Shown one piece after another: positions 2,089 through 18,778 of a stretch of 21,133 nt of DNA. Position numbers and translations under genes: made by a program. Under the pieces are notes generated by a model. That model was not told where the DNA came from and searched no databases. It worked only from the letters and a program-made list of their open reading frames with translations. How positions within the stretch are numbered: the first letter of the stretch is position 1; every line of letters begins with the position of its first letter. Origin of the DNA: a virus; IMG/VR virus record IMGVR_UViG_3300019360_000167, positions 1 to 21,133 of that record; one strand, 5' to 3'.

Positions 2089-4689
2089 TCACGCCGCCAG
2101 GCGGGCGAGCGGGATGGAGAGGTTGGCGACGAGGCCGTCCGGCTGCCAGTCGCGGGATATCGTGCCGCTGAACTGGCCGCTGATGATGCGGCGTACAAGC
2201 TGGCCGCCGAAGCCTTCGTCACCCTGGGGCGATCCCTTGAGCTTTGGCCCGCCGCGCTCCGTCCAGGTCAGGCGCAGGACATCCTCGACGACGGCGCTGG
2301 CGACGAGCACGCTGCCCACCGGCGAGGACAACGCCCCGTACTTCGCGGCGTTGGTAGCCATCTCGTGCAGGATCAGGGCCAGGCTGGTGACCGCATTGCC
2401 GCCGACCGGCACATCCGGCCCGACGATGACAATGCGCTCGCCCTTGGCCTCCCCGGCGCCGACATACGGCGAGAGGATCGTGCGCACCAGCGCCTGCAGG
2501 CTCGTCTCCCGGCTGCGCCCGGGCTCGATCAGGCCGGGCCGCGTCAGGTCGTGCGCCCGCGTCAGTGCCCCCAGGCGCCCCTGCAGCGCGGTGGCCATTT
2601 CCTGCGGCGTGCCGGCGTCGCGCGCGCTCAGGGCCACCACGCTGCTGGCGACGGCGAACAGGTTCTTGACCCGGTGGCCCATCTCGCGGATCAGCAGCTC
2701 CTGCTGCTCCTGGGCGCGCCGGCGGTCGGTGATGTCGCGCGCGATTTTCGACGCGCCGGTCACCACGCCGTCGGCGTCGCGGATCGGTGACACGCTGAGC
2801 GAAATGTCGATGAGGGTGCCGTCCTTGCGCCGGCGCACGGTTTCGTAGTGATCGATGGGCTCGCCGCGCCGGACGCGCGCCAGGATCGTCGGTTCCTCGT
2901 CATCGCGCCCCGGCGGGATCAGCATCGTGATCGGCCGGCCGACGGCTTCCCGTTCCGTGTAGCCGAACAGGTTCTCGGCGCCGCGGTTCCACGTGGTGAT
3001 GACGCCGTCGAGATCCTTGCTGACGATGGCGTCGTCGGACGATTCGACGATCGCGGCAAGTTGCTGTGCGGCCTGGTCGGCGCGTCGACGATGGGCGATC
3101 TCGGCCTGCGCCGACTTCAGCAGGCGGGCATTATCGATGGCAACTGCAGCCTGCGCGCCGATCGCCGTGACGATATCCTCCGCCTCCTGCGTGAAGATGC
3201 CGGGCCGGTCATGGCCCAGGAACAGTCCGCCGTGGACCGCGCCGGAGCGCGACACCACCGGCACCGCGAGGTAGCTGACGACCGGCAGGTGGCCGGCCGG
3301 CATGCCATGATGCGGCGGGTTCCTGCCATAGCGCGGGTCGAGGCGGATGTCGTCGCTGCGCACCACGCCGGTGCCGAGGAACGTCGGCTCGAACACGGCG
3401 GTGGCGCGGGGCAGGCCGAGCTTCTCGAACGCCGACCGCGGCGCTCCGGAGAGTGTGTAGAGCTGGTAGTGGCCGCCCTGATCGTCCTGCACGTTGTAGA
3501 AGAAGGCACCGAAGCGGGCGCCACTCAGGTCGGCGGCGAAGTCCGTCACGGCTTGGACGATGTGTTCCAGCTCGAGGTTGCTGGAGATCGATTTCGCGAT
3601 CCGGTTCAGAGCTTCCAGACGATCCGTCTGCTTCAGCAGGGTGCGCTCGGCATGCTTGCGCGCCGAGATGTCGAGGACGCTGACCAGGGTCCGCTCGGCG
3701 CGCGCACCCTCGAAGGCCATGGTGAACACCACGTCGAGGCGCCGTCCGCGCAGCGTCCGCAGGATCGTCTCGCTCTCGAACCGGCGGCATCCCTCCCACA
3801 GCGCGACCAGTTCCTCGACGAACACCGGCTCGGTCTCGGGCAGGAAGACGTCGGCCAGCGAGCCCAGCAGGGTTTGCTTGCAGTCGGCCTCGAACAGCTC
3901 GACCGTGAAGTCGTTGACGTCGGTTACGCGCACCAGGCCGATCGCTTCCGCCAGCCGCCCCGGATGGTCGCGGAGCCAGGCACGCAGGTCCTCGACGCCG
4001 TCGGCGCGGATCTTGTCCAGCATGTCGATGACGGCCGAGAAATCCTCCTCCCAGACCGCGACGCGGGCATTGTCGAAGATGCCGCGGTAGCGTGCTTCGC
4101 TGTCGCGCAGGCGCTCTTCGGTGCGGCGCTGCCCGGTGATATCGACCAGCATGTTCACGGCACCGATCAGGGCACCGGCCTCGTCGAAGAGCGGCGTCGG
4201 ATAGGGGACGAAGGGGATTCGGGTGCCGTCAGGACGCTCGGCGACGGCTTCCATGCCGCGGACCGGCTGCCGTGTCTTGAGCGCCAGGGCCATCGGGCAT
4301 TCGTCATGCGGCAGCGGCCTGCCATCGGGCCAGTAGAGCTTCCAGGAGCCGCAGAACTCGTTACGGCCCGGCTCGGGCCGGCACCCCCAAAGCCGGACGG
4401 CTTCGTCGTTGTAGAAGATGATACGGCCCTCGGCGTCGGTGGCATAGACGGCGGCGGGCAGGGCCTGGAGGAGGGCCTGGAAATAGCGCGCGGACGGCGG
4501 GGCAGTCCCGTCGTCGGACGCTGCCAGCGCTGCGATACCCGGGCGGCCCCTCGCCATCAGCCGCTCGAAATCGCGCACGATCGTCGCCTTGTCCGCGTCC
4601 GACATCGATGTTTGCGGCACGAACGCCCCACCAATCTCGCGTTGCCGGGAGCGGCAGCGCATCCGACCCGCTCTCGACAGGTCAGACAT
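2089..4689 (-). CDS. PAS-PAS-GAF-PAS HWE-family sensor histidine kinase
   Basis: This 866-residue soluble protein has approximate domains: PAS 68-190, PAS-like 196-345, GAF 365-520, PAS 540-655, then an HWE/HisKA_2 dimerisation-phosphotransfer region and HATPase. Visible catalytic features are the phosphoacceptor H672 in GHRVKN, the N-box HEMATN (775-780), the WxE signature W809-E811 and a Gly-rich box at 823-834. In this family the WxE and the unusual H-box define HWE kinases, which are abundant in Alphaproteobacteria and often feed the PhyR-NepR-EcfG general stress response. No transmembrane segment is seen, so it is cytosolic; the PAS and GAF domains probably bind a cofactor or small ligand. 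An EcfG-like promoter (4807-4831) lies upstream and the response regulator is divergent. M29 at 4605 is an alternative start; neither start has a strong ribosome binding site. Confidence 0.93.
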   Translation of the reverse strand: MSDLSRAGRMRCRSRQREIGGAFVPQTSMSDADKATIVRDFERLMARGRPGIAALAASDDGTAPPSARYFQALLQALPAAVYATDAEGRIIFYNDEAVRLWGCRPEPGRNEFCGSWKLYWPDGRPLPHDECPMALALKTRQPVRGMEAVAERPDGTRIPFVPYPTPLFDEAGALIGAVNMLVDITGQRRTEERLRDSEARYRGIFDNARVAVWEEDFSAVIDMLDKIRADGVEDLRAWLRDHPGRLAEAIGLVRVTDVNDFTVELFEADCKQTLLGSLADVFLPETEPVFVEELVALWEGCRRFESETILRTLRGRRLDVVFTMAFEGARAERTLVSVLDISARKHAERTLLKQTDRLEALNRIAKSISSNLELEHIVQAVTDFAADLSGARFGAFFYNVQDDQGGHYQLYTLSGAPRSAFEKLGLPRATAVFEPTFLGTGVVRSDDIRLDPRYGRNPPHHGMPAGHLPVVSYLAVPVVSRSGAVHGGLFLGHDRPGIFTQEAEDIVTAIGAQAAVAIDNARLLKSAQAEIAHRRRADQAAQQLAAIVESSDDAIVSKDLDGVITTWNRGAENLFGYTEREAVGRPITMLIPPGRDDEEPTILARVRRGEPIDHYETVRRRKDGTLIDISLSVSPIRDADGVVTGASKIARDITDRRRAQEQQELLIREMGHRVKNLFAVASSVVALSARDAGTPQEMATALQGRLGALTRAHDLTRPGLIEPGRSRETSLQALVRTILSPYVGAGEAKGERIVIVGPDVPVGGNAVTSLALILHEMATNAAKYGALSSPVGSVLVASAVVEDVLRLTWTERGGPKLKGSPQGDEGFGGQLVRRIISGQFSGTISRDWQPDGLVANLSIPLARLAA

Positions 4690-4806
4690 TCAGCCGGCGG
4701 ATCCGGCCCTGACTGTCAAGACGCCTGAACGAGGCTACGAGCGAACAGGGGCGTGCACATGGAAACGCGCGCCACGGCCCCCAACCGACGATATGGCCGA
4801 GGGCTA

Positions 4807-4831
4807 AACGCAGTGCGCCAGTGCTGGTTCC
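4807..4831 (-). promoter_or_regulatory. EcfG-type general-stress promoter for the HWE kinase
   Basis: On the minus strand, GGAAC (4831-4827), a 16-base spacer (4826-4811) and CGTT (4810-4807). This matches the published alphaproteobacterial EcfG consensus GGAAC-N16/17-CGTT exactly in both boxes. Initiation near 4800 would leave an untranslated leader of roughly 110 bases before the kinase start at 4689. Confidence 0.7.
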
Positions 4832-4878
4832 AGAGGCATCGCGTGGAGTTGATGACTTATACCGCCGGACATTGGGGC

Positions 4879-4904
4879 GGAACCTGGACAGCGCGGCCTT
4901 CGTT
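4879..4904 (+). promoter_or_regulatory. EcfG-type general-stress promoter for the response regulator
   Basis: GGAAC (4879-4883), a 17-base spacer (4884-4900) and CGTT (4901-4904) on the plus strand. This is a second exact match to the EcfG consensus, 48 bases from the first and pointing the other way. It fits a start of transcription near 4912 and the regulator start at 4990. Confidence 0.7.
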
Positions 4905-4989
4905 TAGCCCCAAGATGCACGCCCGCGCGATTATCGGGATGGCGCGCATGCCCGGGCGCGACAACCCACGGGTTTCCCGACGAAGACGG

Positions 4990-5376
4990 ATGTCCGCTTT
5001 GTCCGACTCGAAACCTGACCCGCTCACCATCCTCGTGGTCGAGGATGAATGGCTGCTGCGCGAGGTGATCGGCACGTATCTGCGCGACGCGGGCTGCGAG
5101 GTGCTCGAAGCGGAGAGTGGCGAATCGGCGCTGGCCATGCTGCACGAGGGCGCGGCCGTCGACGTCGTCTTCACCGACATCCGACTGCCTGGTGATGTCA
5201 ACGGCTGGGACTTCGGGGAAGCTGCCCGCGCGTCGCGCGGCGACATCCCCGTGATCTATGCGTCCGGCTATTCGATATCGCCGCCGCGGCAGGTCAGGGG
5301 CAGCCTGTTCTTCAGCAAGCCTTACGACCCCGAGGCCGTCCTGAGGGCCTGTCGCACCTTGCACCGCCAGCATTAG
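4990..5376 (+). CDS. Single-domain response regulator (CheY-like receiver)
   Basis: From the ATG at 4990 the product is 128 residues, a complete receiver domain with no output domain. Acidic residues E18-D19-E20 (VVEDEW), phosphoacceptor D63 (FTDIRLPG), the switch Ser S92 (YASGY) and K110 (FSKPY) are all present. Upstream in-frame starts would add an Arg-rich extension and would place the start ahead of the EcfG-like promoter, so I prefer 4990. Known: stand-alone receivers such as LovR or SdrG act as phosphate sinks or relays with HWE/HisKA_2 kinases in the alphaproteobacterial stress response. Inferred: this one partners the divergent kinase, with both under EcfG control. The YASGY segment resembles, but is not identical to, the PFxFATGY signature of the FAT GUY receivers. 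Confidence 0.88.
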   Translation: MSALSDSKPDPLTILVVEDEWLLREVIGTYLRDAGCEVLEAESGESALAMLHEGAAVDVVFTDIRLPGDVNGWDFGEAARASRGDIPVIYASGYSISPPRQVRGSLFFSKPYDPEAVLRACRTLHRQH

Positions 5377-5415
5377 AGCATCGCGCTCGAATGGAGCGAC
5401 GCCGTTGGCGTCATG

Positions 5416-5492
5416 CACGCTGTCATCGCGAGCGCAACGAGGGATCCAGGCGCCACCCCTGGATCCCTCGCTGCACTCGCGATGACAGCGTG
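5416..5492. repeat. 77-bp REP-like inverted repeat
   Basis: The outer arms (5416-5432 and 5476-5492) are perfect complements of 17 bases containing GTCATCGCGAG. The inner arms (5438-5450 and about 5457-5470) pair through CGAGGGATCCAGG. The structure has a small internal bulge and a short loop. Repeats with GCGAG...GGGATCCAGG arms are, to my knowledge, dispersed in many proteobacterial genomes. It lies 39 bases after the regulator stop, so it could also act as a transcription end or mRNA stabiliser. It is unrelated in sequence to the purine-rich palindromes further right. Confidence 0.85.
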
Positions 5493-5595
5493 GACGGAGA
5501 AACAGCCTGCGTCCAGTCGAACCGAACGGGCACTGAAGCGCGTCGCAGTAATCAATAAAGAATAGAATTTGCCCCGTCTCGAAAAGGGGAGATTC

Positions 5596-5790
5596 ATGTC
5601 CACTTCGGAAAAAGTAAACCGCCATAAAGAGTTGTCCATTACACGTCCGCTTTTATACCTCCCAAAGTGCGGTCAAAAATTTCTGGTTTTGTACCGGTTG
5701 CGCCTGCCATTGCGCTTGGATATATGGGCGCCATCAGAGTTCGCATTCCCGTCGCCGGGGCTAACGGGCGCTTCGCCGGCCGGGCGTTAA
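5596..5790 (+). CDS. Possible small basic ORF of unknown function
   Basis: An ATG at 5596 with a good upstream AGGGGAGA opens a 64-residue frame rich in Lys, Arg and Leu. I recognise no family. Base composition is lower in GC than the surroundings and codon use is not typical of the window. The candidate promoters lie inside it, which argues against it being a gene. It is listed only because its ribosome binding site is good. Confidence 0.2.
   Translation: MSTSEKVNRHKELSITRPLLYLPKCGQKFLVLYRLRLPLRLDIWAPSEFAFPSPGLTGASPAGR
5632..5726 (+). promoter_or_regulatory. Candidate sigma-70 promoters upstream of the virion operon
   Basis: Two candidates lie in the AT-rich stretch before the capsid gene. 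The first is TTGTCC (5632-5637), a 16-base spacer, then TATACC (5654-5659). The second is TTGCGC (5698-5703), a 17-base spacer, then TATATG (5721-5726). Either would give a leader of about 170-240 bases before 5903. The matches are moderate. Confidence 0.4.
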
Positions 5791-5902
5791 GCGGCAGGCC
5801 GCCGCCGGGCTGATGACACGGGCGTTTCGCAGGTTGCCGACGTCAGGCAACACCGGTTTTCCCGGCGGGGTACGCTCCGCCGCCCTGACAGGTTCATTCG
5901 AC

Positions 5903-6958
5903 ATGGCTGCAACCGATTATCCGGTCGGGCATCCGCTGGTCGTCAAGCTGTGGCAGAAGCGGATCTGGCGCGAGGCGCTCAAGGAGACGATGGCCATGAA
6001 GTTCATGGGCACGTCGACCAACAGCCTCATCCAGATCCTCGACGACACACAGAAGGGCTCCGGCGACCGGCTGAGGGTGCCGCTGCGCATGCAGCTCGCC
6101 GGCCGCGGCGTCGGCGAGACCGAGGCGCTTGAGGGCAACGAGGAAGCGCTGCTCACCTTCTACGACGACGTGATGATCAACGATCTGGCGCACGCCGTCC
6201 GCAACAAGACCCGCATCGACCAGCAGCGCGTGCCGTGGAGCCTGCGCGAGGAGTCGGCGGCCGGCCTGCGCGACTGGTTCGCCGACCGCGTCGACACCTG
6301 GGCCGCCAACGTGCTGGCCGGCAACACCGGCCAGCCCGACGTGCTCTACACCGGCAACCAGGCGGCCAGCGCGCCGACCTCGGCCGGCGGCAACACGCGC
6401 ATCATCTACGCCGACGGCGCCTCGACCACCGAGGGCTCGCTGACGGCGTCGCAGACCTTCACGCTCGCCATGCTCGACAATGCCGTCACGATCGCCAAGA
6501 CCGCGACGCCGCTGATCCGGCCGGTGAAGGTCGGCAGCCAGGAATACTACGTCGCGTTCCTGCACCCCTTCCAGGTCCGCAACATGCGGCAGAACACCAA
6601 CACCGGGCAGTGGCTCGACATCCAGAAGGCGGCCATGGCCGGCGGCGAGGTCGAGGACAACCCGATCTTCACCGGGGCGCTGGGCGTGCACAACGGCGTC
6701 GTGCTGCACGAGTGGACCCGGCTGCCGGCGGCGCCGACCAACGCCAGCACCCGGCGCGCGGTGTTCTGCGGCGCCCAGGCGGCGGCGATGTGCTTCGGCA
6801 AGGGCTACTCCGAGGAGCCGCTCTACGAGGAGCAGAGCTTCGACTACGGCCGCCAGTTCGGCCAGTCGGTGCAGACCATCGCCGGCATGAAGAAGATGGT
6901 CTTCAACGCCATCGACTTCGGCACCATCGTGATCACGACCTGGGCCGTGGCGCCGTAA
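5903..6958 (+). CDS. N4-gp56-family major capsid protein
   Basis: From ATG 5903 the product is 351 residues, a usual size for this capsid family. Features I recognise are the N-terminal VKLWQKRIWREAL, the early GTSTNSLIQ and the DDVMINDLAHAVR stretch, and the C-terminal GMKKMVFNAIDFGTIVI. These are typical of the major capsid proteins related to phage N4 gp56 (HK97 fold). An in-frame ATG at 5813 would add 30 residues that look unlike the family. No strong Shine-Dalgarno precedes 5903. The gene has very high GC at third codon positions. It is followed after 16 bases by a small head protein. There is no portal, scaffold or terminase gene on its left, which is unusual for a prophage. Confidence 0.85.
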   Translation: MAATDYPVGHPLVVKLWQKRIWREALKETMAMKFMGTSTNSLIQILDDTQKGSGDRLRVPLRMQLAGRGVGETEALEGNEEALLTFYDDVMINDLAHAVRNKTRIDQQRVPWSLREESAAGLRDWFADRVDTWAANVLAGNTGQPDVLYTGNQAASAPTSAGGNTRIIYADGASTTEGSLTASQTFTLAMLDNAVTIAKTATPLIRPVKVGSQEYYVAFLHPFQVRNMRQNTNTGQWLDIQKAAMAGGEVEDNPIFTGALGVHNGVVLHEWTRLPAAPTNASTRRAVFCGAQAAAMCFGKGYSEEPLYEEQSFDYGRQFGQSVQTIAGMKKMVFNAIDFGTIVITTWAVAP

Positions 6959-6974
6959 GGAAGGGAGAACACAC

Positions 6975-7421
6975 ATGGCAGCCATCTCCGCCTCCTTCGC
7001 GGCCGCCAACCAGCCGCGCATCCCCAACGGCGTCGAGACCGTCGACGCCTTCCAGAGCTACGTGACGTCGGCGACGCTCTCGGCCGGCGACGTCATCCAC
7101 TACACCAACCTGAAGATCCCGCACGGCGCCACGATCCTCGACCTGCGGCTCTACGGCGACACGCCGGACGGCTCGGGCATCTACCAGGTCGGGCTGGGCG
7201 GCGGCATCGTGTCGGGGGCGCTGTTCGGCTCGGCCACGGTGTCGGCGACGCCGGCGGTGAAGACCCAGACGACGGCGCTGCCCTACGTGGTGTCGGTCTC
7301 CGACGACGCGGTGCTGCGCTACGTCTACCCGACGCTCACCCAGGACGGCGCCATGACGTCGGGCACGGCCTCGACGTCGCTCGGCGTGCGCGTCACCTGG
7401 ACGATGAACAAGACGCGCTGA
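6975..7421 (+). CDS. Small virion protein downstream of capsid (possible head decoration)
   Basis: The product is 148 residues, with GGGAG ten bases before the ATG. The predicted sequence is Ala/Ser/Thr-rich and beta-prone (ATILDLRLYGD, YVVSVSDDAVLRYVYP), with no signal peptide or membrane segment. A short beta-rich protein just after the capsid gene is commonly a decoration or stabilising protein in phages with N4-gp56-type capsids; this role is inferred from position and size. Codon use matches the capsid gene. A quasi-palindrome starts immediately after its stop. Confidence 0.8.
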   Translation: MAAISASFAAANQPRIPNGVETVDAFQSYVTSATLSAGDVIHYTNLKIPHGATILDLRLYGDTPDGSGIYQVGLGGGIVSGALFGSATVSATPAVKTQTTALPYVVSVSDDAVLRYVYPTLTQDGAMTSGTASTSLGVRVTWTMNKTR

Positions 7422-7513
7422 TCAGAGAACAGAAGACAGGCGACAGAGGACGGAAAGACCAGACCCCCGGTCTCATTCTGTCCTCTGTCATCCGACCACT
7501 GTCATCCGTTTGG
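7422..7513. repeat. Quasi-palindrome 1 (purine-rich family), directly after stop codon
   Basis: The left side is built from AGAACAGAAGACAGG and GACAGAGGAC. The right side carries the complement (TTCTGTCCTCTGTCATCCG, 7476-7494, then a second TGTCATCCG). GACC/GGTC closes the loop. Pairing is imperfect, the weakest of the intergenic family members. It begins at the base after the stop of the head protein. Confidence 0.6.
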
Positions 7514-7538
7514 GGTCCGGGCGTGGTGATGGGTGCTC

Positions 7539-7619
7539 GGCGGAAGGCTCGCTTCCGCCATGCCGGCCCGGGACCCGCCGGCGGCGGGCCTTTGTCGAAA
7601 TCCCCCGGCCCGCCGCCGG
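7539..7619. repeat. Two perfect GC-rich hairpins before the 7638 gene
   Basis: Hairpin A is GGCGGAAG (7539-7546), a 5-base loop, then CTTCCGCC (7552-7559). Hairpin B is CCGGCGGCGGGCC (7578-7590), a 16-base loop, then GGCCCGCCGCCGG (7607-7619). No T run follows hairpin B, only AACTTTT, so it is a poor intrinsic terminator. It ends 18 bases before the start codon and could affect ribosome access or protect the mRNA end. Confidence 0.75.
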
Positions 7620-7637
7620 AACTTTTGCGAGGCAGAC

Positions 7638-8486
7638 ATGCCAATCTTCCGGCAATTCCCACTCTCCCGCATCCCGCCGTACGAGTCGCAGCCGTACGAC
7701 CTGCCGCCGGTCCTGACTCCCGGTCCCTGGCAGCTCTACGAAGCCGGCGGGCAGCCATACGAGCCGTCGTTCGGTGCGCTCATGCCGCCGGCGCCGCCGC
7801 AGTACGCGCAGGGAGAAGGGTTCGATCCGAGATTCATCCACTTGGCCCAATCGCCAGGGAGGGAATCGGGAGGCCCACAATCGGCACCATCCCGGCCGCG
7901 GTCGGCCTCGCTTCTCTACTCGCCGGAATTGCGCGGTCTCTATTCGAGCCCGCAGTCACTGCTTGGTGGGTGGAATCCTTCGCCAGAGCTACTGGAGGAA
8001 AACAGGCAGTGGAAGTACCTGGGGAGGTCGCGGGAGCCTCTCCCGGAGAGGGACCAGTCCTTTGAGGCCCGCAGCAACATCCGGCAGGAGAAAGTCAAGT
8101 TGGCCTCGCAGCCACGCACGATGCGGGATGCGGAGGACGCCCCACCGCCACGGGAGCAGCGCCAGTTGGTGGGTCAGCCGAAGTCTGAGGCTCAGAAGCC
8201 CCCTGTTCAGCCGCATGTGAAAGGCCAGTCCGAGGGGAGTCCCTTCAGCAAGGGAACCAGCATTGACGCGCGACTGGCCGGGAAGCTCGGCGTAGGCCGT
8301 GGCGAGATAGCGCCCGGCATGTCTTTCCAGATTGTCAGAGACAGCAAGGGCAAGTGGCAGGTGGTTCCTTCGCTGGACGTCGGTGTTAGCGATGGTAACG
8401 GAGTCACATTCGAGGGGAGCCACAACCCGTTTACCCATACTTGGGGGCTTCGCGGCAAGATCAAGCTTCCGCTTGGGGATCGCTGA
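7638..8486 (+). CDS. Pro-rich cargo-like protein of unknown function, possibly frameshifted
   Basis: The ATG at 7638 has GCGAGGC upstream and gives 282 residues. The first about 70 residues are Pro/Tyr-rich and look disordered. The C-terminal third (from about residue 195) has a charged linker and then beta-prone segments (MSFQIVRDSKGKWQVVPSL, GVTFEGSHN). I recognise no domain. Its Pro-rich start and relaxed base composition resemble the other cargo proteins at 10028, 15418 and 19427, but it lacks their Gly/Ala hydrophobic segment in this frame. Such a segment appears in the frame with codons starting at 7883 (open until a stop at 8065), so two compensating frameshifts between about 7855 and 8065 are possible. 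It ends 3 bases before the next gene. Confidence 0.65.
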   Translation: MPIFRQFPLSRIPPYESQPYDLPPVLTPGPWQLYEAGGQPYEPSFGALMPPAPPQYAQGEGFDPRFIHLAQSPGRESGGPQSAPSRPRSASLLYSPELRGLYSSPQSLLGGWNPSPELLEENRQWKYLGRSREPLPERDQSFEARSNIRQEKVKLASQPRTMRDAEDAPPPREQRQLVGQPKSEAQKPPVQPHVKGQSEGSPFSKGTSIDARLAGKLGVGRGEIAPGMSFQIVRDSKGKWQVVPSLDVGVSDGNGVTFEGSHNPFTHTWGLRGKIKLPLGDR

Positions 8487-8489
8487 GCC

Positions 8490-10028
8490 GTGAACCTCGA
8501 CCAGGCCATCGGCGTCCTGCAGCAGCGCCACGAGAAGATCGCGGCCAGCGTGTCGGGTGCGCCCGCGCCCATGCAGGCGCTGGAGCACGACTACCACCGG
8601 CTGCTCAACCTGCATCCCGAGCACCCGGCGCTGCTGTTCGGCATCGGCACCATCTACGCGCAGACCGACCGCTCGGGCGCCGCGATCGCGATGCTGCGCC
8701 AGTCGGTCGACCGCGGCTCGCTGGGGCCCGAGCCGTGGCTCAACATGGCCGGCGCCTACAAGAACGAGCACAAGGATGCCAGCGCGGCCGCGTGCTACCG
8801 CAAGGCGCTCGAAATCTGCGACCGGCTGGAGCAGCGCAACGAGAAGGCCAGGCGCAACAGCAAGACGCCGCCGATCGACGCGGCGCAGCTGGCCGCGAAC
8901 CGGTGCAATGCCCTGCACGGCATGGCGTCGCTCTACGTCAACGCCGGCCAGCCGGAGAAGATCATCGAATGGGCCGAGAAGTCGCTGGCGGTCAACGCCG
9001 CCGATCGCTTCGCGCTGTGGAACAAGGCGCTGGGCCTGCTGGAAAGCGGCCGGTTCGCCGAGGGCTTCCGGCTCTATGACGAGGCCGGGTTCATGGCCGG
9101 GGGCGTGAAGCCGCCGGAGCGCAAGATCAAGACCTACGGCGGCCTGCCGAAGTGGGACGGCTTACCCGGCCGGACCGTCATCTGCTACGGCGAGCAGGGC
9201 GTGGGCGACGAGATCATGTTCGCCTCGATGCTGCCGGACCTGCTGCGCGACTGCCGCGTGATCATCGATTGCGACCCGCGCCTGCAGGCGATGTTCCGGC
9301 GGTCGTTCCCCGACGCCGAGGCGGTCTACCCGACCAGCGCCTGGGATGCGCCGTTCGACTGGATCAAGGACCACACTGTCGACGCCTGGGTGCCGATGGG
9401 CAGCCTGGGCCGGTACTACCGGCCGGACCTCGCCGCCTTCCCGCGCACGCCGTTCCTCAAGGCCGACCCGGCGAAGGTCGAGCGCTGGCGCTCAGAAATC
9501 AGAAACCAGAAATCTTCTGGCCTTCCGGCTTCTGACTTCCGTCCTCTGAAAGTCGGCATCAGCTGGGCCGGCGGCCTGAAGAAGACGCGCTTCGACCAGC
9601 GCAGCATGGATCTGAGCGCATGGGCCGACATCCTGCGCGTGCCCGGCATCGGGTGGTATTCGCTGCAGTACCACCCGCAGGCGGCGGACGAGTGCGCCCA
9701 GGTCGGCGCATTGATCGGCGTGCCGATCCACCATTGGGGCGATATCGTGAACGACTTCGAGGAGCTGGCCGGCTTCCTCGCCAACCTCGACCTGGTCATC
9801 ACGGTCAACACGACGGTCGTGCACCTCGCCGGCGCGCTCGGCATCCCGACGTGGTGCCTGACGCCCGCGATGTGCGCCTGGCGCTACCAGTGCCAGGGCC
9901 CGATGCCCTGGTACGGCAGCGTCGAGATGTTCCGGCAGCAGAAGGCAGGCGAGTGGGGGCCGGTGCTGGCGGCCGTGCACGAGCGGCTGGCGGCGATGAT
10001 GCCGCTCGTGACGTGGGAGGCGGCGTAA
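8490..10028 (+). CDS. TPR-containing glycosyltransferase (GT9-like C-terminal half)
   Basis: GTG start at 8490, three bases after the previous stop; 512 residues. Residues 1-200 form TPR-like helical pairs (PEHPALLFGIGTIYAQTD, EPWLNMAGAYKN, ADRFALWNKALGLLESGRF). From about 225 there is a glycosyltransferase fold related to heptosyltransferases and other TPR-linked transferases: YGEQGVGDEIMFASMLPDL (233-251), VGISWAGG (355-362) and LVITVNTTVVHLAGALG (435-451), the nucleotide-sugar binding region. Residues 335-352 are encoded by a palindromic element (9491-9550) placed in frame in the loop before the second nucleotide-binding strand. The gene overlaps the next by one base (TAATG). Its place in a virion operon suggests glycosylation of a virion or host-surface component; the substrate is unknown. 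Confidence 0.85.
   Translation: MNLDQAIGVLQQRHEKIAASVSGAPAPMQALEHDYHRLLNLHPEHPALLFGIGTIYAQTDRSGAAIAMLRQSVDRGSLGPEPWLNMAGAYKNEHKDASAAACYRKALEICDRLEQRNEKARRNSKTPPIDAAQLAANRCNALHGMASLYVNAGQPEKIIEWAEKSLAVNAADRFALWNKALGLLESGRFAEGFRLYDEAGFMAGGVKPPERKIKTYGGLPKWDGLPGRTVICYGEQGVGDEIMFASMLPDLLRDCRVIIDCDPRLQAMFRRSFPDAEAVYPTSAWDAPFDWIKDHTVDAWVPMGSLGRYYRPDLAAFPRTPFLKADPAKVERWRSEIRNQKSSGLPASDFRPLKVGISWAGGLKKTRFDQRSMDLSAWADILRVPGIGWYSLQYHPQAADECAQVGALIGVPIHHWGDIVNDFEELAGFLANLDLVITVNTTVVHLAGALGIPTWCLTPAMCAWRYQCQGPMPWYGSVEMFRQQKAGEWGPVLAAVHERLAAMMPLVTWEAA
9491..9550. repeat. Quasi-palindrome 2, in frame inside the TPR-glycosyltransferase gene
   Basis: The left arm (9492-9513) is TCAGAAATCAGAAACC plus AGAAAT. 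The right arm (9514-9550) is built from CTTCTGGCC, TTCTGACTTCC and TCCTCTGA. The arms pair with A/G-type differences. Composition and unit structure match the intergenic elements at 17345 and 13275. The length keeps the reading frame open and encodes 18 residues (335-352). Confidence 0.75.
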
Positions 10029-11290
10029 TGGCTGATCCGTGGGACACGTTGTCGCCATCGGCATGGACCCGCGCGGCAATGTCGCATCCGTTGGGCGCCG
10101 CAGCGTACAACGCCTGGCGGCAGGGGGATCGCGCCGGCATTCTGGGCATGGTGCCGGACGATGTCCGTCGGGCGTGGTCGCCATGGCTGCTGCCGCTGGC
10201 GAACCCGGCGGTATTCGTGGACACCGTGTCGCCTGGCGCCGCGGTGCGTGACACATTGCATGCGTCCGGCGATCTGGCTCGCGCTGCCATGCGCGGCGAT
10301 CCCGTGGGCGCGCTGGGCGCTACCGGCATGGGCTTGCTGTCGATAGCCGGCCTCGTGCCGTGGCTCGCGCCAGCCAAGGTCGCCACGACAACCACCCAGG
10401 GCGCGGCGAGGGCGGCAGTGCCCGTTGCCACCACAGAGGGCAGGGGGCCGGCAAAGCCTCTGATGCCGGATCTCATGCCGTTGGTGCCGGCGGGCGGCGT
10501 GCAAAACGCCTCGAAAAGTGTTATGATCTCTGATCCTATCCCGAGGTCACAAAGGCCGTTTTCGGCGGACTATCCGACAGGAGCGCGCTCCGATGACAGC
10601 GGTCGACTCACCCACGACATCGAAGGAAGAGAACTCGTCGCAGACCGGGTGGTCGGTCGAAGAGTGGTGGGCGGAGAAGATGTTGCCGTCACGCAAGCAG
10701 AACTTGACCCCATCACAACGCGCCTTACAGGCAGCCCTGCTAAGGTTGTTGCGCCGCGCGCGCTTCCAAGAAAAGCAGTCGGAGTCTACGAGCAATGGCG
10801 CAACCCCGTAACGGGGGAACGCGAGCGAGCCATTGCCCTGAGTAAGGCGCTATCAGCGCAGGACACGCCGCGCGTCCTTGGTCACGAAGTCGGCCACGCC
10901 ATATCGAGGATGGCTGACGACATACCAGCCGACGGCATCGAGACAAAGCTCCGCCAGGTCTACAACGACCTGAACGCGCGTGACTGGCGGGTCGAGAAAA
11001 GCGCCAAGACGGGCGAGCCTGTTCCGCGGCGTTACTGGATCGGCCCCGAGCAGCAAGGCTACACGGGCGCGCACATCCCCCGGGAACTGATGGCCGAGGC
11101 GATCCGCGCCTACATGACAGACCCCAACTACCTGAAGACCGTTGCGCCGGAAGTGGCCGCGCGGACTCGCAAGTATGCCAATCCGAATCCCCTGACCTCG
11201 CGAACCATTCAGTTCAATTCGATGCTGCTGCCGCTGGCGGCGGGCGGCTTCGGGACGCTCATGCCGCCGGTCTTCGGCGAGGAGCGCTGA
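10028..11290 (+). CDS. Modular cargo protein with HExxH metallopeptidase-like domain
   Basis: The ATG overlaps the previous stop (TAATG); 420 residues. Order: N-terminal region with Trp/Pro-rich helices (1-80); Gly/Ala hydrophobic segment GALGATGMGLLSIAGLVP (94-111); a conserved-looking block RPFSADYPTGA...GRLTHDIEGREL (176-203) of the type I associate with large polyvalent phage proteins; then HEVGH (286-290), the zinc-binding HExxH motif, with E357 in LMAEAIRAY a plausible third ligand. The C-terminal NPNPLTSRTIQFNSMLL and GFGTLMP tail is repeated in the orphan gene at 20585. The stretch 10500-10810 is lower in GC than the flanks, suggesting a swapped module. Inferred role: a virion-packaged or host-directed metalloprotease; activity is not proven. 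Confidence 0.8.
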   Translation: MADPWDTLSPSAWTRAAMSHPLGAAAYNAWRQGDRAGILGMVPDDVRRAWSPWLLPLANPAVFVDTVSPGAAVRDTLHASGDLARAAMRGDPVGALGATGMGLLSIAGLVPWLAPAKVATTTTQGAARAAVPVATTEGRGPAKPLMPDLMPLVPAGGVQNASKSVMISDPIPRSQRPFSADYPTGARSDDSGRLTHDIEGRELVADRVVGRRVVGGEDVAVTQAELDPITTRLTGSPAKVVAPRALPRKAVGVYEQWRNPVTGERERAIALSKALSAQDTPRVLGHEVGHAISRMADDIPADGIETKLRQVYNDLNARDWRVEKSAKTGEPVPRRYWIGPEQQGYTGAHIPRELMAEAIRAYMTDPNYLKTVAPEVAARTRKYANPNPLTSRTIQFNSMLLPLAAGGFGTLMPPVFGEER

Positions 11291-11292
11291 CC

Positions 11293-11808
11293 ATGACGCT
11301 GATCACCGACGCCTACCGCGAGCAGAACCGCCAGCTGCACGCCGGCCGCGCCGACTACGGCACCTCGGGCAAGGCCTGGGCGCCGCAGGTGCGGCCGCTC
11401 GCCGACTGGGGCCGCAAGGCGGTCCTCGATTTCGGCTGCGGCAAGGCCACGCTCGCCGCGAGGCTCGGGCCGGCGTACCGGATCACGAACCATGACCCCT
11501 GCATCGAGGGGCTGGACGCGACGCCGGCGCCGCACCCCGTCGTGGTGTGCGGCGACGTGCTGGAGCATGTCGAGCCGGAGTGCCTCGAGGCGGTGCTCGC
11601 CGAGCTGCGCCGCGTGACGCAGGAGGTCGGGCTGTTCGTCGTCCACCTCACGGCGGCGAAGAAGACGCTGCCCGACGGCCGCAACGCGCACCTGATCCAG
11701 CAGCCGGCCGCCTGGTGGCAGGCCCGCATCACCGCCGCCGGCTTCGCGATCGAGCAGCAGGGCGCCGTCGGGCACGAGGCGTGGTTCGTCGTGAGGCCGG
11801 CTCAATGA
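11293..11808 (+). CDS. Class I SAM-dependent methyltransferase-like protein
   Basis: The ATG lies two bases after the previous stop; 171 residues, short for the family. Motif I is present as VLDFGCGKATLAARLG (residues 44-59), and HDP and the DVLEHVEPE stretch (about 92-100) correspond to the acidic loop and motif IV region. Both are usual in small-molecule and carbohydrate methyltransferases. It sits between a metallopeptidase-like gene and a glycosyltransferase and overlaps the latter by four bases (ATGA), so it probably acts on a sugar or other group made by the same operon. No DNA-methylase motif (DPPY/NPPY) is seen. Confidence 0.82.
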   Translation: MTLITDAYREQNRQLHAGRADYGTSGKAWAPQVRPLADWGRKAVLDFGCGKATLAARLGPAYRITNHDPCIEGLDATPAPHPVVVCGDVLEHVEPECLEAVLAELRRVTQEVGLFVVHLTAAKKTLPDGRNAHLIQQPAAWWQARITAAGFAIEQQGAVGHEAWFVVRPAQ

Positions 11809-12614
11809 TCCTTCAGCAGACTTCAGGACAAGCCCTTCTGCAGGCCCCGGGGCAGGCCGAGCCGCTGCTCGTCTTCATCGGTTTCGACCCGCGCGAGGAG
11901 ATCGCGTTCGACGTGTGCCGGCATTCGCTGCTGCGTCGCTCGTCGGTGCCGCTCCACGTCAGGGCACTGCGCCAGGACGGGCTTCGCGTTGCCGGGCTGT
12001 ACCGCCGCGCCTGCTTCGTGCGCGACGGCCAGCGGGTCGATGCCATCGACGGCCGGCCGTTCTCGACCGAGTTCAGCTTCACGCGCTTCCTCGTGCCGGC
12101 GCTGTGCCGATACGAGGGCTGGGCGCTGTTCGTCGACTGCGATTTCCTGTTCCTGGCCGACGTCGCCGAGCTGTGCCGGCACATGGACGAGAGCAAGGCC
12201 GTCATGGTCTGCCGGCAGCGCCACGACCCGGCCGAGGGCGTGAAGATGGATGGGCAGGCGCAGAGCCGCTACCGGCGCAAGAACTGGTCGTCCTTCATGT
12301 TGCTCAATTGCGGGCATCCGGCCGTGAAGCGCCTGACCGTTGCCGCGGTGAACGAACAGCCGGGATCCTGGTTGCACGGGTTCGAGTGGCTGGAGGACGG
12401 CCGGATCGGCGACCTGCCGCACGCGTGGAACTGGATCGCCGGCACGACGCGCGGCAGCCCCAAGGCGATTCACTACACGTCGGGCGGGCCATGGTTCACC
12501 GACCATGCGTCGGTCGCGTTCGCGCGCGAATGGCGCGACGAGCATGCACGGACACGCGCGGCCGCGACGACCGGCGCCGCCGAGACCCAAACCGTGTCGG
12601 AGGAGGCCGCGTGA
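11805..12614 (+). CDS. Glycosyltransferase with DxD motif (GT8-like)
   Basis: The ATG overlaps the methyltransferase stop (ATGA); 269 residues. After a Gln-rich N-terminus, LLVFIGFDPREEIAFDVCRHSLL opens a nucleotide-sugar binding fold. FTRFLVPALCRYEGWALFVDCDFLFL carries the DxD metal/nucleotide-sugar motif (FVDCDF), and later IGDLPHAWNWIAG and IHYTSGGPWF resemble the C-terminal parts of GT8-type transferases. No signal or membrane segment is seen. With the TPR-glycosyltransferase and methyltransferase it forms a three-enzyme sugar-modification set inside the virion operon. Substrate unknown. Confidence 0.8.
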   Translation: MILQQTSGQALLQAPGQAEPLLVFIGFDPREEIAFDVCRHSLLRRSSVPLHVRALRQDGLRVAGLYRRACFVRDGQRVDAIDGRPFSTEFSFTRFLVPALCRYEGWALFVDCDFLFLADVAELCRHMDESKAVMVCRQRHDPAEGVKMDGQAQSRYRRKNWSSFMLLNCGHPAVKRLTVAAVNEQPGSWLHGFEWLEDGRIGDLPHAWNWIAGTTRGSPKAIHYTSGGPWFTDHASVAFAREWRDEHARTRAAATTGAAETQTVSEEAA

Positions 12615-12653
12615 CGCTTCAACAGACCCGGGCCAGGAAGAGGAGGGCGCGCC

Positions 12654-13274
12654 GTGGCGACGCTGGCTGACCTGCGCGCCCGCATCGCGGATGACCTCGA
12701 TCGGTCGGACCTCACGTCGCAGATCGACGCCGCCATCCGTGACGCCGTCGAGCACTACGAGTCCGAGCGCTTCGTGTTCAACGAGGTGGTGGGTGCCACG
12801 GCGACGTTCAGCAGCAGCGTGGACTCGATCCCGCTCGCGTCGCTCCCGGTGGCCTTCACCCGCGTCGACCGCATCCGCATCGACGATGGCGGCGCCGACC
12901 TGGTCGACCTGGTGCCGCGCGACTACGCCTGGCTGATGGCGGCGCAGGATGCCAGGGCGGTGGCACGGCCGGTCGAATACTGCATCTACGCCGATCGCAT
13001 CCAGCTCGACAGCCGGCCCGACCGGGACTACGCGGCGATCCTCGATGGCGTGCGGCGCATCAGCACCGCCAGCGCCGCGACCGACAGCAGCGCCTGGTTC
13101 AACGACGGCAAGCGCCTGGTCCGCGCCCGCGCCAAGGCCGAGCTCTACGCCCACGTCATCAAGGAGTTCCCGCAGGCCGAGGCGATGGCGGCGGTCGAAC
13201 GGCGCGAGTACCGCGCGCTGAAGCAGAAGCTCAACACGCGCAACAGCGGGCGGGTGCGCCCGACGGAGTTCTAG
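12654..13274 (+). CDS. Phage head-tail adaptor-like protein (SU10-type)
   Basis: The GTG at 12654 has a strong AGGAGG 8 bases upstream; 206 residues. The N-terminal VATLADLRARIADDLDRSDL, then IDAAIRDAVEHYESERFVFNE, is the pattern I recognise from SU10-like phage adaptor proteins that sit between portal and tail in short-tailed phages. It is alpha-helical at both ends with a beta middle, and the C-terminus is basic. Third-position GC is very high, like the capsid gene. A short GTG frame of 19 codons (12612-12671) overlaps its start and begins like the gene at 11805 (MTLQQT vs MILQQT); I treat that as a remnant. A quasi-palindrome follows the stop. Confidence 0.72.
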   Translation: MATLADLRARIADDLDRSDLTSQIDAAIRDAVEHYESERFVFNEVVGATATFSSSVDSIPLASLPVAFTRVDRIRIDDGGADLVDLVPRDYAWLMAAQDARAVARPVEYCIYADRIQLDSRPDRDYAAILDGVRRISTASAATDSSAWFNDGKRLVRARAKAELYAHVIKEFPQAEAMAAVERREYRALKQKLNTRNSGRVRPTEF

Positions 13275-13391
13275 CCGGAGGACAGAGGACAGATGACGGA
13301 GGACAGAAAAGCGAAACCCAAGAGGGCAGAGCGGGGAAGGGCGGGGCAGGAGTTCATTCTGTCCTCCGTCAACCGTCCTCTGTCCTCTGCG
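13275..13391. repeat. Quasi-palindrome 3, directly after adaptor stop codon
   Basis: The left arm (13277-13308) and right arm (13357-13389) are near-perfect complements made of GGACAG/GGACGG units, with about four differences. The loop of about 48 bases is G/A-rich. It starts within three bases of the TAG at 13272-13274. There is no T run after the right arm, so it is not a standard intrinsic terminator. Confidence 0.85.
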
Positions 13392-13469
13392 AAGAAAGCG
13401 CGACGCCGCAAGCGTCTCGCTCTGCTGCTCGCCGGCTACGCGCTCGCGCAGGAACAGGAGGTTTCGTGA
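13293..13469 (+). CDS. Possible 58-residue small protein starting inside the palindrome
   Basis: An ATG at 13293, inside the left arm, opens a frame through loop and right arm and continues into a sequence-like tail: KKARRRKRLALLLAGYALAQ, a basic cluster then a hydrophobic stretch. It ends at a TGA sharing its A with the next start (TGATG at 13467-13471). The tail (13389-13469) looks like genuine coding sequence in phase with an operon junction; the N-terminal part is palindrome-derived. It may be a small membrane-associated peptide whose original N-terminus was replaced by the element. Function unknown. Confidence 0.35.
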   Translation: MTEDRKAKPKRAERGRAGQEFILSSVNRPLSSAKKARRRKRLALLLAGYALAQEQEVS

Positions 13470-13921
13470 TGTGGTGGAACCAGACGCCGCCCTGGATGCA
13501 GGGCATGGGGCAGGGCGGCCAGCCGGGCATGACGCCCGGCGCCGGCATGCCGCCGTATCGCAACGCCCCGATGAACATGAACCCGGTGCAGATGGGGCCG
13601 CCCGGCTCGATTCCCGTCGCGCCGCCACCTGCCGCGCAGCAGGGCCAGCGGCCCGTTGATCCGGCGCAGATGGGCATGCTGGCGGCGATGCTGGCGCAGC
13701 AAACGCAGAAGCCAATGACATCCGTGGCGCAGCGGGCCGCCGCAGCCGGCGCAACTGGTGTTGGCGGACCGCTGCCCGGCGGCGCGGCCGCGGTGCCCGC
13801 GGGCGCGGCCGCAGTGCCCGCCGGCGCTGCCGCGGTACCCGCCGGCATGGACCCGAGCCAACTCGGGATGCTGGCGCAGTTCCTTGCGCGGCAGGGCATC
13901 CTGGGCGGCCTCGGTCGCTGA
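13469..13921 (+). CDS. Met/Pro/Gly-rich disordered virion-associated protein
   Basis: 150 residues from ATG 13469, chosen over GTG 13466 because AGGAGG (13456-13461) then lies 7 bases away. The N-terminal half is rich in Met, Pro, Gly and Gln (MNMNPVQMGPP). There is a triple AAAVPAG repeat (residues 105-125) and a short helical end LGMLAQFLARQG. The partial protein at 20815 has the same composition and a similar GMLI...LLPGMMQQRG ending. Location between adaptor and nozzle suggests a virion component or internal protein; no family recognised. Confidence 0.7.
   Translation: MWWNQTPPWMQGMGQGGQPGMTPGAGMPPYRNAPMNMNPVQMGPPGSIPVAPPPAAQQGQRPVDPAQMGMLAAMLAQQTQKPMTSVAQRAAAAGATGVGGPLPGGAAAVPAGAAAVPAGAAAVPAGMDPSQLGMLAQFLARQGILGGLGR
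13781..13843 (+). repeat. Three in-frame 21-bp tandem repeats
   Basis: Three units (13781, 13802, 13823) each encode GAAAVPA. The first two differ at only two bases, while the third has drifted at synonymous sites, so selection on the encoded linker is likely. Confidence 0.9.
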
Positions 13922-13922
13922 C

Positions 13923-15383
13923 ATGCGCGTCGCCCTGGGCCCGCTCGCACCCGACAACCCCGACCTCGGCAACGCCGGGCTCGAGGATGCGGTGAACTGC
14001 ATCCCGCTGGACACGGCCTACGGGCCGTTCCCGGACACGCAGGTGTTCTCCGCGTCGATCTCCGGGCGGGCCCAGGGCGCCTGGTCGACCCGCGACACAT
14101 CGGGCACCGTCAGCACCTTCGCCGCCACCGCGGGCCAGATCTACAAGGCCAGCGCCACGGGCTGGGCCAACGTCTCGCGCACCGCCAGCTACACGACGGC
14201 GACCGACGGCTCCTGGGCGTTCGCGACCTTCGGCAACACCTGCCTGGCCGTGAACGGGCTCGACGCCATGCAGGTCTACACGCTCGGCAGCTCCTCGCGA
14301 TTCCTCGACCAGAGCGCCAGCGCCAGCGCGCCGCTCGCCGCCTCGATCTGCGTGGTGCGCGACTTCGTGTTCGCGGGCCGCCTGTCGACCCAACAGCACC
14401 GCCTGCAGTGGTGCCAGATCAACAACCCGCTGCGCTGGACGGCGAGCGCCCGGGCGCAGTCGGACAGCCAGGGCCTGCCGGGCGAAGGCGGCGCGATCGT
14501 GGCCATGACCGGCGGCGACTTCGCCACCGTCCTGGCGCAGCGCTCGATCTGGCGCGGCACCTATGTCGGCTCGCCGGTGATCTTCCGGTTCGACGAGGTC
14601 GTGCCCAACATCGGCTGCGCCGCACAGGGCAGCGTGGCGCGCTTCCAGAACCTGACGTTCTTCCTGTCGCAGAGCGGCTTCTATCTCTTCGACGGCGCCC
14701 AGGCGGTGCCGATCGGCAACAACCTGATCGACCGCTTCTTCCTCGACGACCGCAACCCCTCGTTCCTGAACCGCATCACATCGGTCATCGACCCGATCAA
14801 CAAGCTCTACATCGTCAGCTACCCCAGCAACGCCAGCACGTCAGGCACGGCCGACCGGATGCTGCTCTACAACTGGGCGGCCCGGCGCTGGGCCCGCGCC
14901 GAGGTGAGCCTGGAGCTGATCTTCTCCGGGCTCAGCGCCGGCTACACGCTGGAAGAGCTGGATGCGCTTTCCGGCAGCCTCGATGACCTGCCGTTCAGCC
15001 TCGACAGCGACGCCTGGGCCGGCGGCAACACCATCATCTCGGGCTTCAATCCCGTGCACCGCATGGTGACGTTCGACGGCGCCGCCAGGACGGCGCGCTT
15101 CATCACCGGCGAGGCGCAGCTGATCCCCGACCGGCGTGCGTTCATGACCGCCGTGCGGCCGCTGGTGCAGGGTAACGCCAGCACAGCCATCACCGTGCAG
15201 GTCGGCAAGCGCGATCGGCTGGTCGACAGCGTGTCGTACACGACGGCCTCGGCGATGAATGCCAACGGCCTGTGCCCGGTGCGCGCCAACGCCCGCTTCC
15301 ACCGCCTGCGCATGGACATCAGCGCCGGCTTCACCCAGGCCTTGGGGTTCGATCTCACGGCCGGACCGGAGGGACTGCGGTGA
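13923..15383 (+). CDS. Large beta-rich tail protein, probable tail nozzle/hub
   Basis: 486 residues from ATG 13923, two bases after the previous stop. The N-terminal ALGPLAPDNPDLGNAGLEDA and repeated beta segments (IWRGTYVGSPVIFRF, LTFFLSQSGFYLFDG, MLLYNWAARRWARAE) are those of a beta-propeller-like phage protein. In short-tailed phages such a protein (P22 gp10 or T7 gp12 functional analogue) follows the adaptor and forms the tail nozzle. The assignment rests on overall pattern and on the adaptor upstream. High third-position GC groups it with the capsid and adaptor. A GTG frame of 12 codons (15380-15418) spans the gap to the next gene. Confidence 0.72.
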   Translation: MRVALGPLAPDNPDLGNAGLEDAVNCIPLDTAYGPFPDTQVFSASISGRAQGAWSTRDTSGTVSTFAATAGQIYKASATGWANVSRTASYTTATDGSWAFATFGNTCLAVNGLDAMQVYTLGSSSRFLDQSASASAPLAASICVVRDFVFAGRLSTQQHRLQWCQINNPLRWTASARAQSDSQGLPGEGGAIVAMTGGDFATVLAQRSIWRGTYVGSPVIFRFDEVVPNIGCAAQGSVARFQNLTFFLSQSGFYLFDGAQAVPIGNNLIDRFFLDDRNPSFLNRITSVIDPINKLYIVSYPSNASTSGTADRMLLYNWAARRWARAEVSLELIFSGLSAGYTLEELDALSGSLDDLPFSLDSDAWAGGNTIISGFNPVHRMVTFDGAARTARFITGEAQLIPDRRAFMTAVRPLVQGNASTAITVQVGKRDRLVDSVSYTTASAMNANGLCPVRANARFHRLRMDISAGFTQALGFDLTAGPEGLR

Positions 15384-15417
15384 ACGCTGACACGTACAAG
15401 CCGATGGAGGCGACGTG

Positions 15418-16524
15418 ATGAGTGGCGATCCACTGCCCGTCTACATGCCGCTGGCCGCGCCGCCACCGCCGGCGGGCACGCCACCGCGGGACCCCTTGAG
15501 GTACATCGAAGACCGGTTGGTGAATGCACTCGCGCGCGCCTTCGGCCTGCCGCCCCTGCGCCAGCCCGACCCGCGCGCATCGGCCTGGAGCGTGTCGCCT
15601 GGCGCGCCTTTCGCGCCGGGGGCGTTGCTGTCGGCGGAAGGCGGCGGACAGCGTCTGAAGCCCGGCGCTTCGCTGCCGGGACGAACGCCCAACCCCTACG
15701 ACTTCGGCTACGACGCGCTGGATCTGATCGCCGGATTCTCACCGCTGGCCGCCGTCAGGGATGCCGCAACCGAGTTCGAGAACGCACGCATGAAAAGTCA
15801 GGCTGGTGACGCTTTGGGCGCGGCTGGTGCTACGGGGCTCGGCCTGCTGGCGCTGGCGGGAATCGTGCCGCCGGGCAGGGCGGCGGCGGCGGCAAGGGAA
15901 GCGGCGCTCTTGAAACGGGCAACCGACGCGGCGCGCAAGGCCGATCTCGCCACGGACGAGGCGAGCCGTATGCAACGCCGGGCCGCAGGCGGCTATACCG
16001 CCGGCCTCTGGCGCGGTGGTACCGGCCCGGAGAGCGGCGTCTGGTTCACACCCGACAAGGCGTGGGCAACTGACTTCGCCGCGCGGTATGGCGGCACCGG
16101 CGACCTGCGGGAGTATGCGATACGGATGGGGCGCGAGTTCGACGCGCGCCAGACCCATAGCGCCACCGAACTCAAGCCAATTGCCGACGCGATCGCCAAA
16201 ATAGACCCGAAATTCGCAGGCCAGTTGATCGAGCACGCGGACGACTGGGGCGGCCGCATTCCAGGCCCTGCCGTTTGGTACCTGATGAAGCAAAACTTGG
16301 TCGATCCGTTCGGTCCGTTCGCACGCGCCGGCTACGATTCCATCAATGCCGGAAGGGAGGTCGTCGCCTTGCGACGGACGCAGGGGCAGGTGCGGGATGC
16401 TAACAGAGCGATGTTCAATCCGGCGCTGAGAAACAGCCCTAATCCGTTTGCCGCTGTCCTTCCGCCTGCGCTGACGTTCGGGGTGCTCTATCCCACCCTT
16501 CTCAGCGAGGAGCGGCCGCGATGA
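15418..16524 (+). CDS. Modular cargo protein with ADP-ribosyltransferase-like domain (A)
   Basis: ATG 15418 chosen over GTG 15415 for its 7-base distance from GGAGG; 368 residues. Order: Pro-rich N-terminus (1-100), Gly/Ala hydrophobic segment DALGAAGATGLGLLALAGIV (131-150), Ala-rich helix (154-190), then a domain with LWRGG (197-201), VWFTPDKAWATDFAARYG (208-225), AGYDSINAGREVVAL (304-318) and ANRAMFNPALR (328-338), and a short hydrophobic tail ending SEERPR. This order resembles ART-type domains of phage polyvalent proteins (aromatic-RGG, a WFT/FS plus A-F/Y segment, then GYD...evv). A catalytic Glu is not obvious, so activity is uncertain. The 19427 gene shares every motif. The 3' end overlaps a minus-strand gene by 37 bases. 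Confidence 0.72.
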   Translation: MSGDPLPVYMPLAAPPPPAGTPPRDPLRYIEDRLVNALARAFGLPPLRQPDPRASAWSVSPGAPFAPGALLSAEGGGQRLKPGASLPGRTPNPYDFGYDALDLIAGFSPLAAVRDAATEFENARMKSQAGDALGAAGATGLGLLALAGIVPPGRAAAAAREAALLKRATDAARKADLATDEASRMQRRAAGGYTAGLWRGGTGPESGVWFTPDKAWATDFAARYGGTGDLREYAIRMGREFDARQTHSATELKPIADAIAKIDPKFAGQLIEHADDWGGRIPGPAVWYLMKQNLVDPFGPFARAGYDSINAGREVVALRRTQGQVRDANRAMFNPALRNSPNPFAAVLPPALTFGVLYPTLLSEERPR

Positions 16525-16910: not shown

Positions 16911-16981
16911 GAGGCGCAACTAACCTATGGTTGCACATCAGGAAAAGGTACCCGCAAAAGCAGCTTGATCGAGGTGCTGCG

Positions 16982-18774: not shown

Positions 18775-18778
18775 CGCC

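Follow-up and report, generated by a model that had tools for sequence, protein, structure and literature searches.

The 300-base gap between a sensor kinase gene and a single-domain receiver gene in a 21,133-base virus record (the whole stretch of DNA analysed, here called the window) was found to carry two back-to-back motifs that are very probably sigma-EcfG promoters, one directed to each gene. The recurrence of the motif at relatives of the receiver gene suggests that the locus is a conserved, stress-induced pair and not the product of chance. The reading favoured here, with somewhat better than even confidence, is that of an EcfG-driven feedback unit, of either sign, in the general stress response of the alphaproteobacteria.

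Two divergent promoter motifs and their surroundings

The kinase gene (2089-4689, minus strand) and the receiver gene (4990-5376, plus strand) are transcribed divergently. The motif toward the kinase (4807-4831, minus strand, GGAACCAGCACTGGCGCACTGCGTT) is an exact GGAAC-N16-CGTT match, with the -35 element GGAAC at 4827-4831 and the -10 element CGTT at 4807-4810, and the motif toward the receiver (4879-4904, plus strand, GGAACCTGGACAGCGCGGCCTTCGTT) is an exact GGAAC-N17-CGTT match, with GGAAC at 4879-4883 and CGTT at 4901-4904. The two are arranged with the -35 elements inside and the -10 elements outside, and 47 bases lie between them, not 48 as given in the initial annotation, which was correct in describing exact matches, one per strand, that point to the kinase and to the regulator. 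The minus motif ends 117 bases from the kinase ATG at 4689 (201 bases from an alternative ATG at 4605) and the plus motif 85 bases from the receiver ATG at 4990, each being shortly upstream of the gene that it would drive. Both have the GGAAC element, the spacer of 16-17 bases and the CGTT element expected of a sigma-EcfG promoter, the consensus of which has been given as GGAAC-N16-CGTT (PMC3892343) and as GGAAC-N16-17-C/GGTT, with GGTT allowed (PMC12148442); for Sphingomonas melonis, GTT is accepted as the -10 element (PMC6599016).

One alternative is an accidental origin of both nine-base matches, with the two genes transcribed from promoters elsewhere. Against it, the mere count of matches is weak evidence. 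Although the two motifs are the only N16/17 matches in the whole window, 0.72 matches are expected there when spacers of 15-18 are allowed, and two or more such loose matches occurred in 18 of 100 window shuffles, so that the count is unimpressive. The placement of the pair, unlike the count, is convincing: among 40,000 dinucleotide shuffles of the gap a match was obtained on either strand in 169 and on both strands in 6, orientation being left free, which bears out the initial estimate that two correctly placed matches would seldom arise in a gap of this size. A scan of 4600-5830 for a sigma-70-like promoter found none, a result of little weight since 0.2 were expected by chance. No intrinsic terminator was found in a scan at the locus, and an Rfam scan at gathering scores and a tRNA scan were likewise empty.

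Together the two promoters form an imperfect inverted repeat (4801-4910; arms 4801-4818 and 4893-4910, 83% complementary), and ten identical bases, CGTTTAGCCC, occur at and after both -10 elements. An equally high promoter-promoter alignment score was reached in 3 of 5,000 shuffles in which the motif was kept. Inspected by eye, the gaps of the relatives do not generally contain this repeat.

The promoter pair and the two genes lie in the left, bacterial-looking part of the window, and phage-like genes run from 5813 on. The left end of the window cuts the gene of a multi-HAMP sensor-like protein (1-1766, minus, the same strand as the kinase gene). Between the receiver gene and the phage-like genes there is a near-perfect inverted repeat (5416-5492) with 35-base arms, 94% complementary, and a 7-base loop; it resembles a REP/MITE element and was not reported by the terminator scan. 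The first phage-like gene, about 440 bases after the receiver gene, encodes a major capsid protein (PF13252; phrog_334), 89-91% identical to that of two virus records, both of which start inside the capsid gene. Other products of 5813-21133 are a SU10-type adaptor, a virion structural protein and a tail-fibre-like protein, and neither terminase nor portal was recognised among the window proteins scanned. Two, perhaps three, phage-side proteins (9620-11290, 15415-16524 and 19256-20413) seem by eye to have common modules and similar C-terminal ends, as though gene parts had been repeated.

The receiver subfamily and the promoter motif in its members

The receiver is a protein of 128 aa with one Response_reg domain (Pfam, 9.5e-16), in agreement with its earlier description as a single-domain regulator. 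Searched with the receiver, 385 genomes sampled from the class gave five best matches, in G393, G334, G254, G021 and G156, with 42-49% identity; the match in G334 adjoins a kinase fragment, as does a weaker match (37%) in G364. When the window receiver and the five best matches were aligned (A1, six rows), the acidic pair E18-D19, D63, S92 and K110 proved invariant. The profile of A1 retrieved 13 relatives from 132 genomes, 11 of them in 96 genomes of one order and 2 in 36 genomes of another, and a score gap bounded this set, its members reaching at least 140 bits and the next sequences at most 104 bits. In the class sample, members occur in at least 5 of the 385 genomes, which is a lower bound since a limited number of candidates was scored per genome. 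An HMM of the 13 relatives, built without the window receiver, gave the latter 134.1 bits; the other single-domain receivers of one set scored at most 102.4 bits and the best plasmid receiver (Bradyrhizobium sp. 195) 110.8 bits, and some large multidomain proteins score higher in sum. Judged by its high profile score and the clear gap to other receivers, the window receiver belongs to a bounded receiver subfamily.

Conservation of the motif was evaluated within 200 bases upstream of the conserved start, where the exact motif is present in 11 of the 13 relatives and the relaxed form GGAAC-N17/18-GTT in 12; the site is thus conserved in the gaps that correspond to that of the window. For the window itself this count includes one strand only, as its minus site is just past the limit from the conserved protein start. 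Six of the 13 relatives have the relaxed form on both strands, divergent as in the window, and in these six the kinase-facing site is the exact one, the receiver-facing site having GGTT or TGTT as -10. Considering only sites that face the receiver, five relatives have the exact motif and six more the relaxed form. The sole member devoid of the motif by either definition is that of G415, which lies next to what looks like a transporter operon; the 3.4 kb examined there include no kinase. The reversed motif, used as a control, occurred in none of the 13 relatives, and in shuffles of the 14 regions a mean of 0.069 members, and never more than 2, carried the exact motif. Chance matches were rejected as the explanation on this comparison, 11 of 13 against a shuffle mean of 0.069. 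The genome of Dongia deserti speaks for accident in the same way as the window shuffles do: it has 154 hits of the motif and 294 of the reversed pattern, hence no enrichment, and a bare match is uninformative there. With the placement in the gap and the recurrence of the exact motif at the same place in the relatives set against these counts, an accidental origin of the window pair is very improbable.

The motif is not unique to the receiver subfamily, because other receivers and other genes carry it too. Among 22 control receivers (22 of the 38 non-member loci from the two order-level searches) three have the exact motif and six the relaxed one, and the figures for 138 control genes, taken from 20 loci with a simple ORF picker, are 3 exact, 9 relaxed and 2 relaxed on both strands.

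A divergent kinase related to the window kinase accompanies the receiver in 10 of the 13 relatives, and all four of these kinases that were scanned are HWE kinases by Pfam. The partner is not fixed, since in G393 the receiver is in tandem behind a HisKA kinase and in G511 in tandem behind a weakly matching kinase frame. On sequence grounds the kinase and the receiver of the window are likely to be partners.

The link to EcfG was sought in the genomes of the relatives. PhyR relatives were found in all 16 genomes examined, 14 of them over the curated cut-off. The scan for the same motif near phyR and nepR, proposed in the initial annotation, was run on genomes of relatives and showed the exact motif next to phyR, or to a gene resembling it, in each of the 13 genomes with receiver relatives. 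In the first order it is beside phyR in 11 of 11 genomes, and in most of them the opposite strand of the phyR gap has a further site, of the form GGAAC-N17/18-GTT; across the gap from phyR, 10 of the 11 have a frame that is NepR-like or EcfG-like (ORF lists, by eye), and the eleventh list has PhyR only. G393 and G511 contain two phyR-like genes each, one of which has the exact motif before it. In G393, where the subfamily receiver has an EcfG motif as well, a neighbouring gene that encodes CsbD also carries an exact motif. The gap beside phyR in the three genomes examined from the Dongia order (G001, G010 and G012) contains no exact motif, only GGAAC-N17/18-GTT. A NepR search of the 21-kb record, the sole record of the window's genome, returned no match.

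The claim that EcfG promoters drive both genes is well supported by the conservation in the relatives and by the same motif beside their phyR, and these comparisons make EcfG dependence of both genes in this host highly likely. As a variant compatible with this explanation, an EcfG paralogue and not the main EcfG might read the promoters. Several EcfG factors exist in some species (PMC3892343, PMC7083833), but no finding here favours a paralogue, to which only a small probability is given.

As a separate observation, the Dongia deserti genome has, at locus L170 (5625-6551), an exact EcfG motif that heads two small receiver genes in succession, possibly another EcfG-controlled receiver locus.

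The kinase, its relatives and the plasmid loci

The kinase gene is predicted to encode a sensor histidine kinase of 866 aa. Pfam recognised PAS/PAS_4 (two PAS stretches), GAF_2 (9.2e-18) and HWE_HK (3.3e-16), and with 60.2 bits for PF07536 against a cut-off of 22.8 the protein is an HWE histidine kinase. A second PAS-like block, at about 195-350, was recognised by alignment to relatives only and had no Pfam hit; with it, the PAS-PAS-GAF-PAS sensor described in the initial annotation is confirmed.

Near-full-length relatives of the kinase were found on Sinorhizobium plasmids and in two genomes of the Dongia order. The former are 59% identical and match the window kinase across all domains (HWE domain about 51%); the latter are 56-57% identical, with 58-73% in the sensory domains and 34-36% in the HWE domain. 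The HWE domain of the window kinase is 49-54% identical to those of Rhizobium setariae, G364 and G288. Given these differences between lineages, one lineage may have acquired its HWE domain by exchange. With the ten divergent partner kinases of the receiver relatives the HWE domain of the window kinase has only 30-37% identity, a point against the favoured reading.

The motif and the receiver do not always accompany such kinases. In the Dongia order the exact motif is located about 30 bases upstream of the kinase relatives in G001 and G012, the kinase frame of the latter being split, and G010 has a motif with one mismatch before the conserved part of the kinase; no receiver was found beside the similar kinase in any of the three. 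G364 and G288, close to the window kinase in its C-terminal half (61% and 58%), have a divergent receiver of another group, without EcfG motif. A scan of 80 kinase relatives disclosed the exact motif (spacer 15-18) in 7, the stretch scanned including coding sequence, and of these 7 only L001 (Dongia deserti) and L070 have a motif that starts at most 70 bases upstream of the start. The 80 sequences were rejected as a footprint set, as most match the C-terminal part only and are not orthologous. No kinase relative was confirmed in viral contigs.

Of the plasmid matches, five named receivers, out of 1058 matching records, and five kinases, out of 1195, were examined. Of the five receivers, that of Mesorhizobium sp. 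L-2-11 has the exact motif, that of Bradyrhizobium barranii the relaxed form, and three have neither. Plasmid pA of Sinorhizobium chiapasense carries, in tandem, an exact motif, a single-domain receiver gene and a kinase relative; the kinase aligns over 71-864 with 59% identity (51% in the HWE domain), and the receiver has a lower score, 98.6 bits, on the subfamily HMM. At two Ensifer adhaerens loci the exact motif precedes a same-strand kinase-type gene upstream and not the kinase relative.

Further arrangements were noted on plasmids. Two S. meliloti plasmids (L262 and L263, about 3100-3830) have a GGAAC site followed by a broken receiver frame and a kinase; the site is exact in one and has GGTT in the other, the kinase is in two pieces in one, and a further exact motif (3803-3827) is directed away from the kinase. 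Behind the kinase relative on the Ensifer adhaerens plasmid pCTYH.Ch1_2 (L265, 4031-9784) there are genes for an annotated sigma-70 family factor, for a CBS-domain protein and for DNA topoisomerase IB, and this region is possibly a stress-response island.

Predicted role and comparison with known systems

In the mechanism proposed, the divergent sigma-EcfG promoters would cause the HWE kinase and its partner receiver to be made together once the general stress response is on. The kinase would sense its signal via the PAS and GAF domains and would exchange phosphoryl groups with the receiver, which, as it has no output domain, is presumed to be a phosphate acceptor or shuttle. Since its synthesis would coincide with free EcfG, the pair would most likely act back on the PhyR-NepR-EcfG switch, and such feedback on the stress response is considered probable. 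The pair would perhaps dampen the switch by withdrawing phosphate from the relay upstream, the action proposed for LovK-LovR. Of that system it is reported that lovK and lovR are SigT-controlled, with likely negative feedback, and that the pair is a phosphate sink which drains MrrA (PMC5964349). It provides the best precedent for a negative sign, to which about an even chance is given; MrrA and SdrG would be the precedents for a positive one, and the sequence does not decide between the signs.

A positive or hub role overlaps with the feedback explanation: EcfG would raise an extra stress-sensing kinase and a receiver that passes phosphate toward PhyR, and the loop would amplify or widen the inputs. 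PhyR is activated mainly by HWE/HisKA2 kinases, and two single-domain receivers, MrrA and SdrG, are positive components (PMC5964349, PMC6599016); in S. melonis core regulators, as well as an orphan hybrid kinase, are EcfG-dependent (PMC6599016). The window receiver, however, does not have the FATGUY signature of the known hubs and has an aromatic residue at K-3 (by eye), and SdrG is only a weak match to it (E 3.2e-4); this role is considered rather unlikely. Also unlikely is an output branch, in which the pair would belong to the stress regulon and would control motility, attachment or metabolism via other partners, with no feedback on PhyR. It would accord with the action of LovK-LovR on the holdfast and of Sma0114 on catabolite repression (PMC5964349), and with the exchangeable kinase partner seen in G393 and, in a similar layout, in G511. 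Yet no output domain or neighbouring target gene suggests another process, and in 10 of the 13 relatives the partner kinase is related to that of the window, of the class employed in the stress response.

EcfG-controlled kinase-receiver pairs are already known. For this receiver subfamily and its divergent promoter pair no description was found in the open-access literature, most subscription papers being outside the scope of the search. Beyond the EcfG-driven feedback unit of the window, it is tentatively suggested, with slightly less than even confidence, that the unnamed receiver subfamily and the PAS/HWE kinase form a conserved module accessory to the general stress response of the alphaproteobacteria, marked by back-to-back EcfG promoters that mirror those of phyR, with kinase relatives also on plasmids, and setting the strength or the shut-off of the response in several lineages. 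Tuning and shut-off of the stress response in alphaproteobacteria are known from few species, and a receiver subfamily recognisable from its sequence, with EcfG promoters before most of its members, provides a list of testable feedback candidates in little-studied lineages. The findings suggest that kinase-receiver pairs come under EcfG control more widely than LovK-LovR alone would indicate.

In LovK-LovR of Caulobacter crescentus, as in the window, a kinase and a single-domain receiver are encoded together, with plausible feedback on the stress response. LovK-LovR is under an EcfG-type sigma factor, and for the window pair such control is predicted from the EcfG motifs on both strands. The two systems differ in that lovKR is an operon, whereas the window genes diverge with one promoter each, and in that LovK has a LOV domain, whereas the window kinase has PAS-PAS-GAF-PAS; the blue-light kinase model NF052306 gave 151.9 bits, under its cut-off of 450, and no cysteine was seen by eye in PAS3. 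A LovK-LovR pair by architecture was rejected on these grounds, no LOV domain being recognised and the genes being divergent. The similarity in logic to LovK-LovR that had been suggested at the outset is reasonable, given the reported SigT control of lovK and lovR and their likely negative feedback (PMC5964349), and the initial interpretation as a whole is supported in part.

The S. chiapasense pA locus has, like the window, a long kinase relative, a single-domain receiver and an exact EcfG motif, but there the motif is followed by receiver and kinase in tandem, and in the window the two genes diverge. SdrG and MrrA, the FATGUY receivers, are alphaproteobacterial single-domain receivers like that of the window, and they act in the stress response. 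The FATGUY motif reads PFxFATG[GY]. At this position the window receiver has PVIYASGY, and it retains an aromatic residue at K-3 of the active-site lysine (by eye); FATGUY membership was rejected on these two features. In FATGUY receivers the Y-T coupling residue is missing (PMC5964349). Last, the gap between phyR and nepR-ecfG resembles that of the window in having GGAAC-type promoters between divergent genes; it serves the core switch genes, whereas the window gap would serve a sensor kinase and its receiver.
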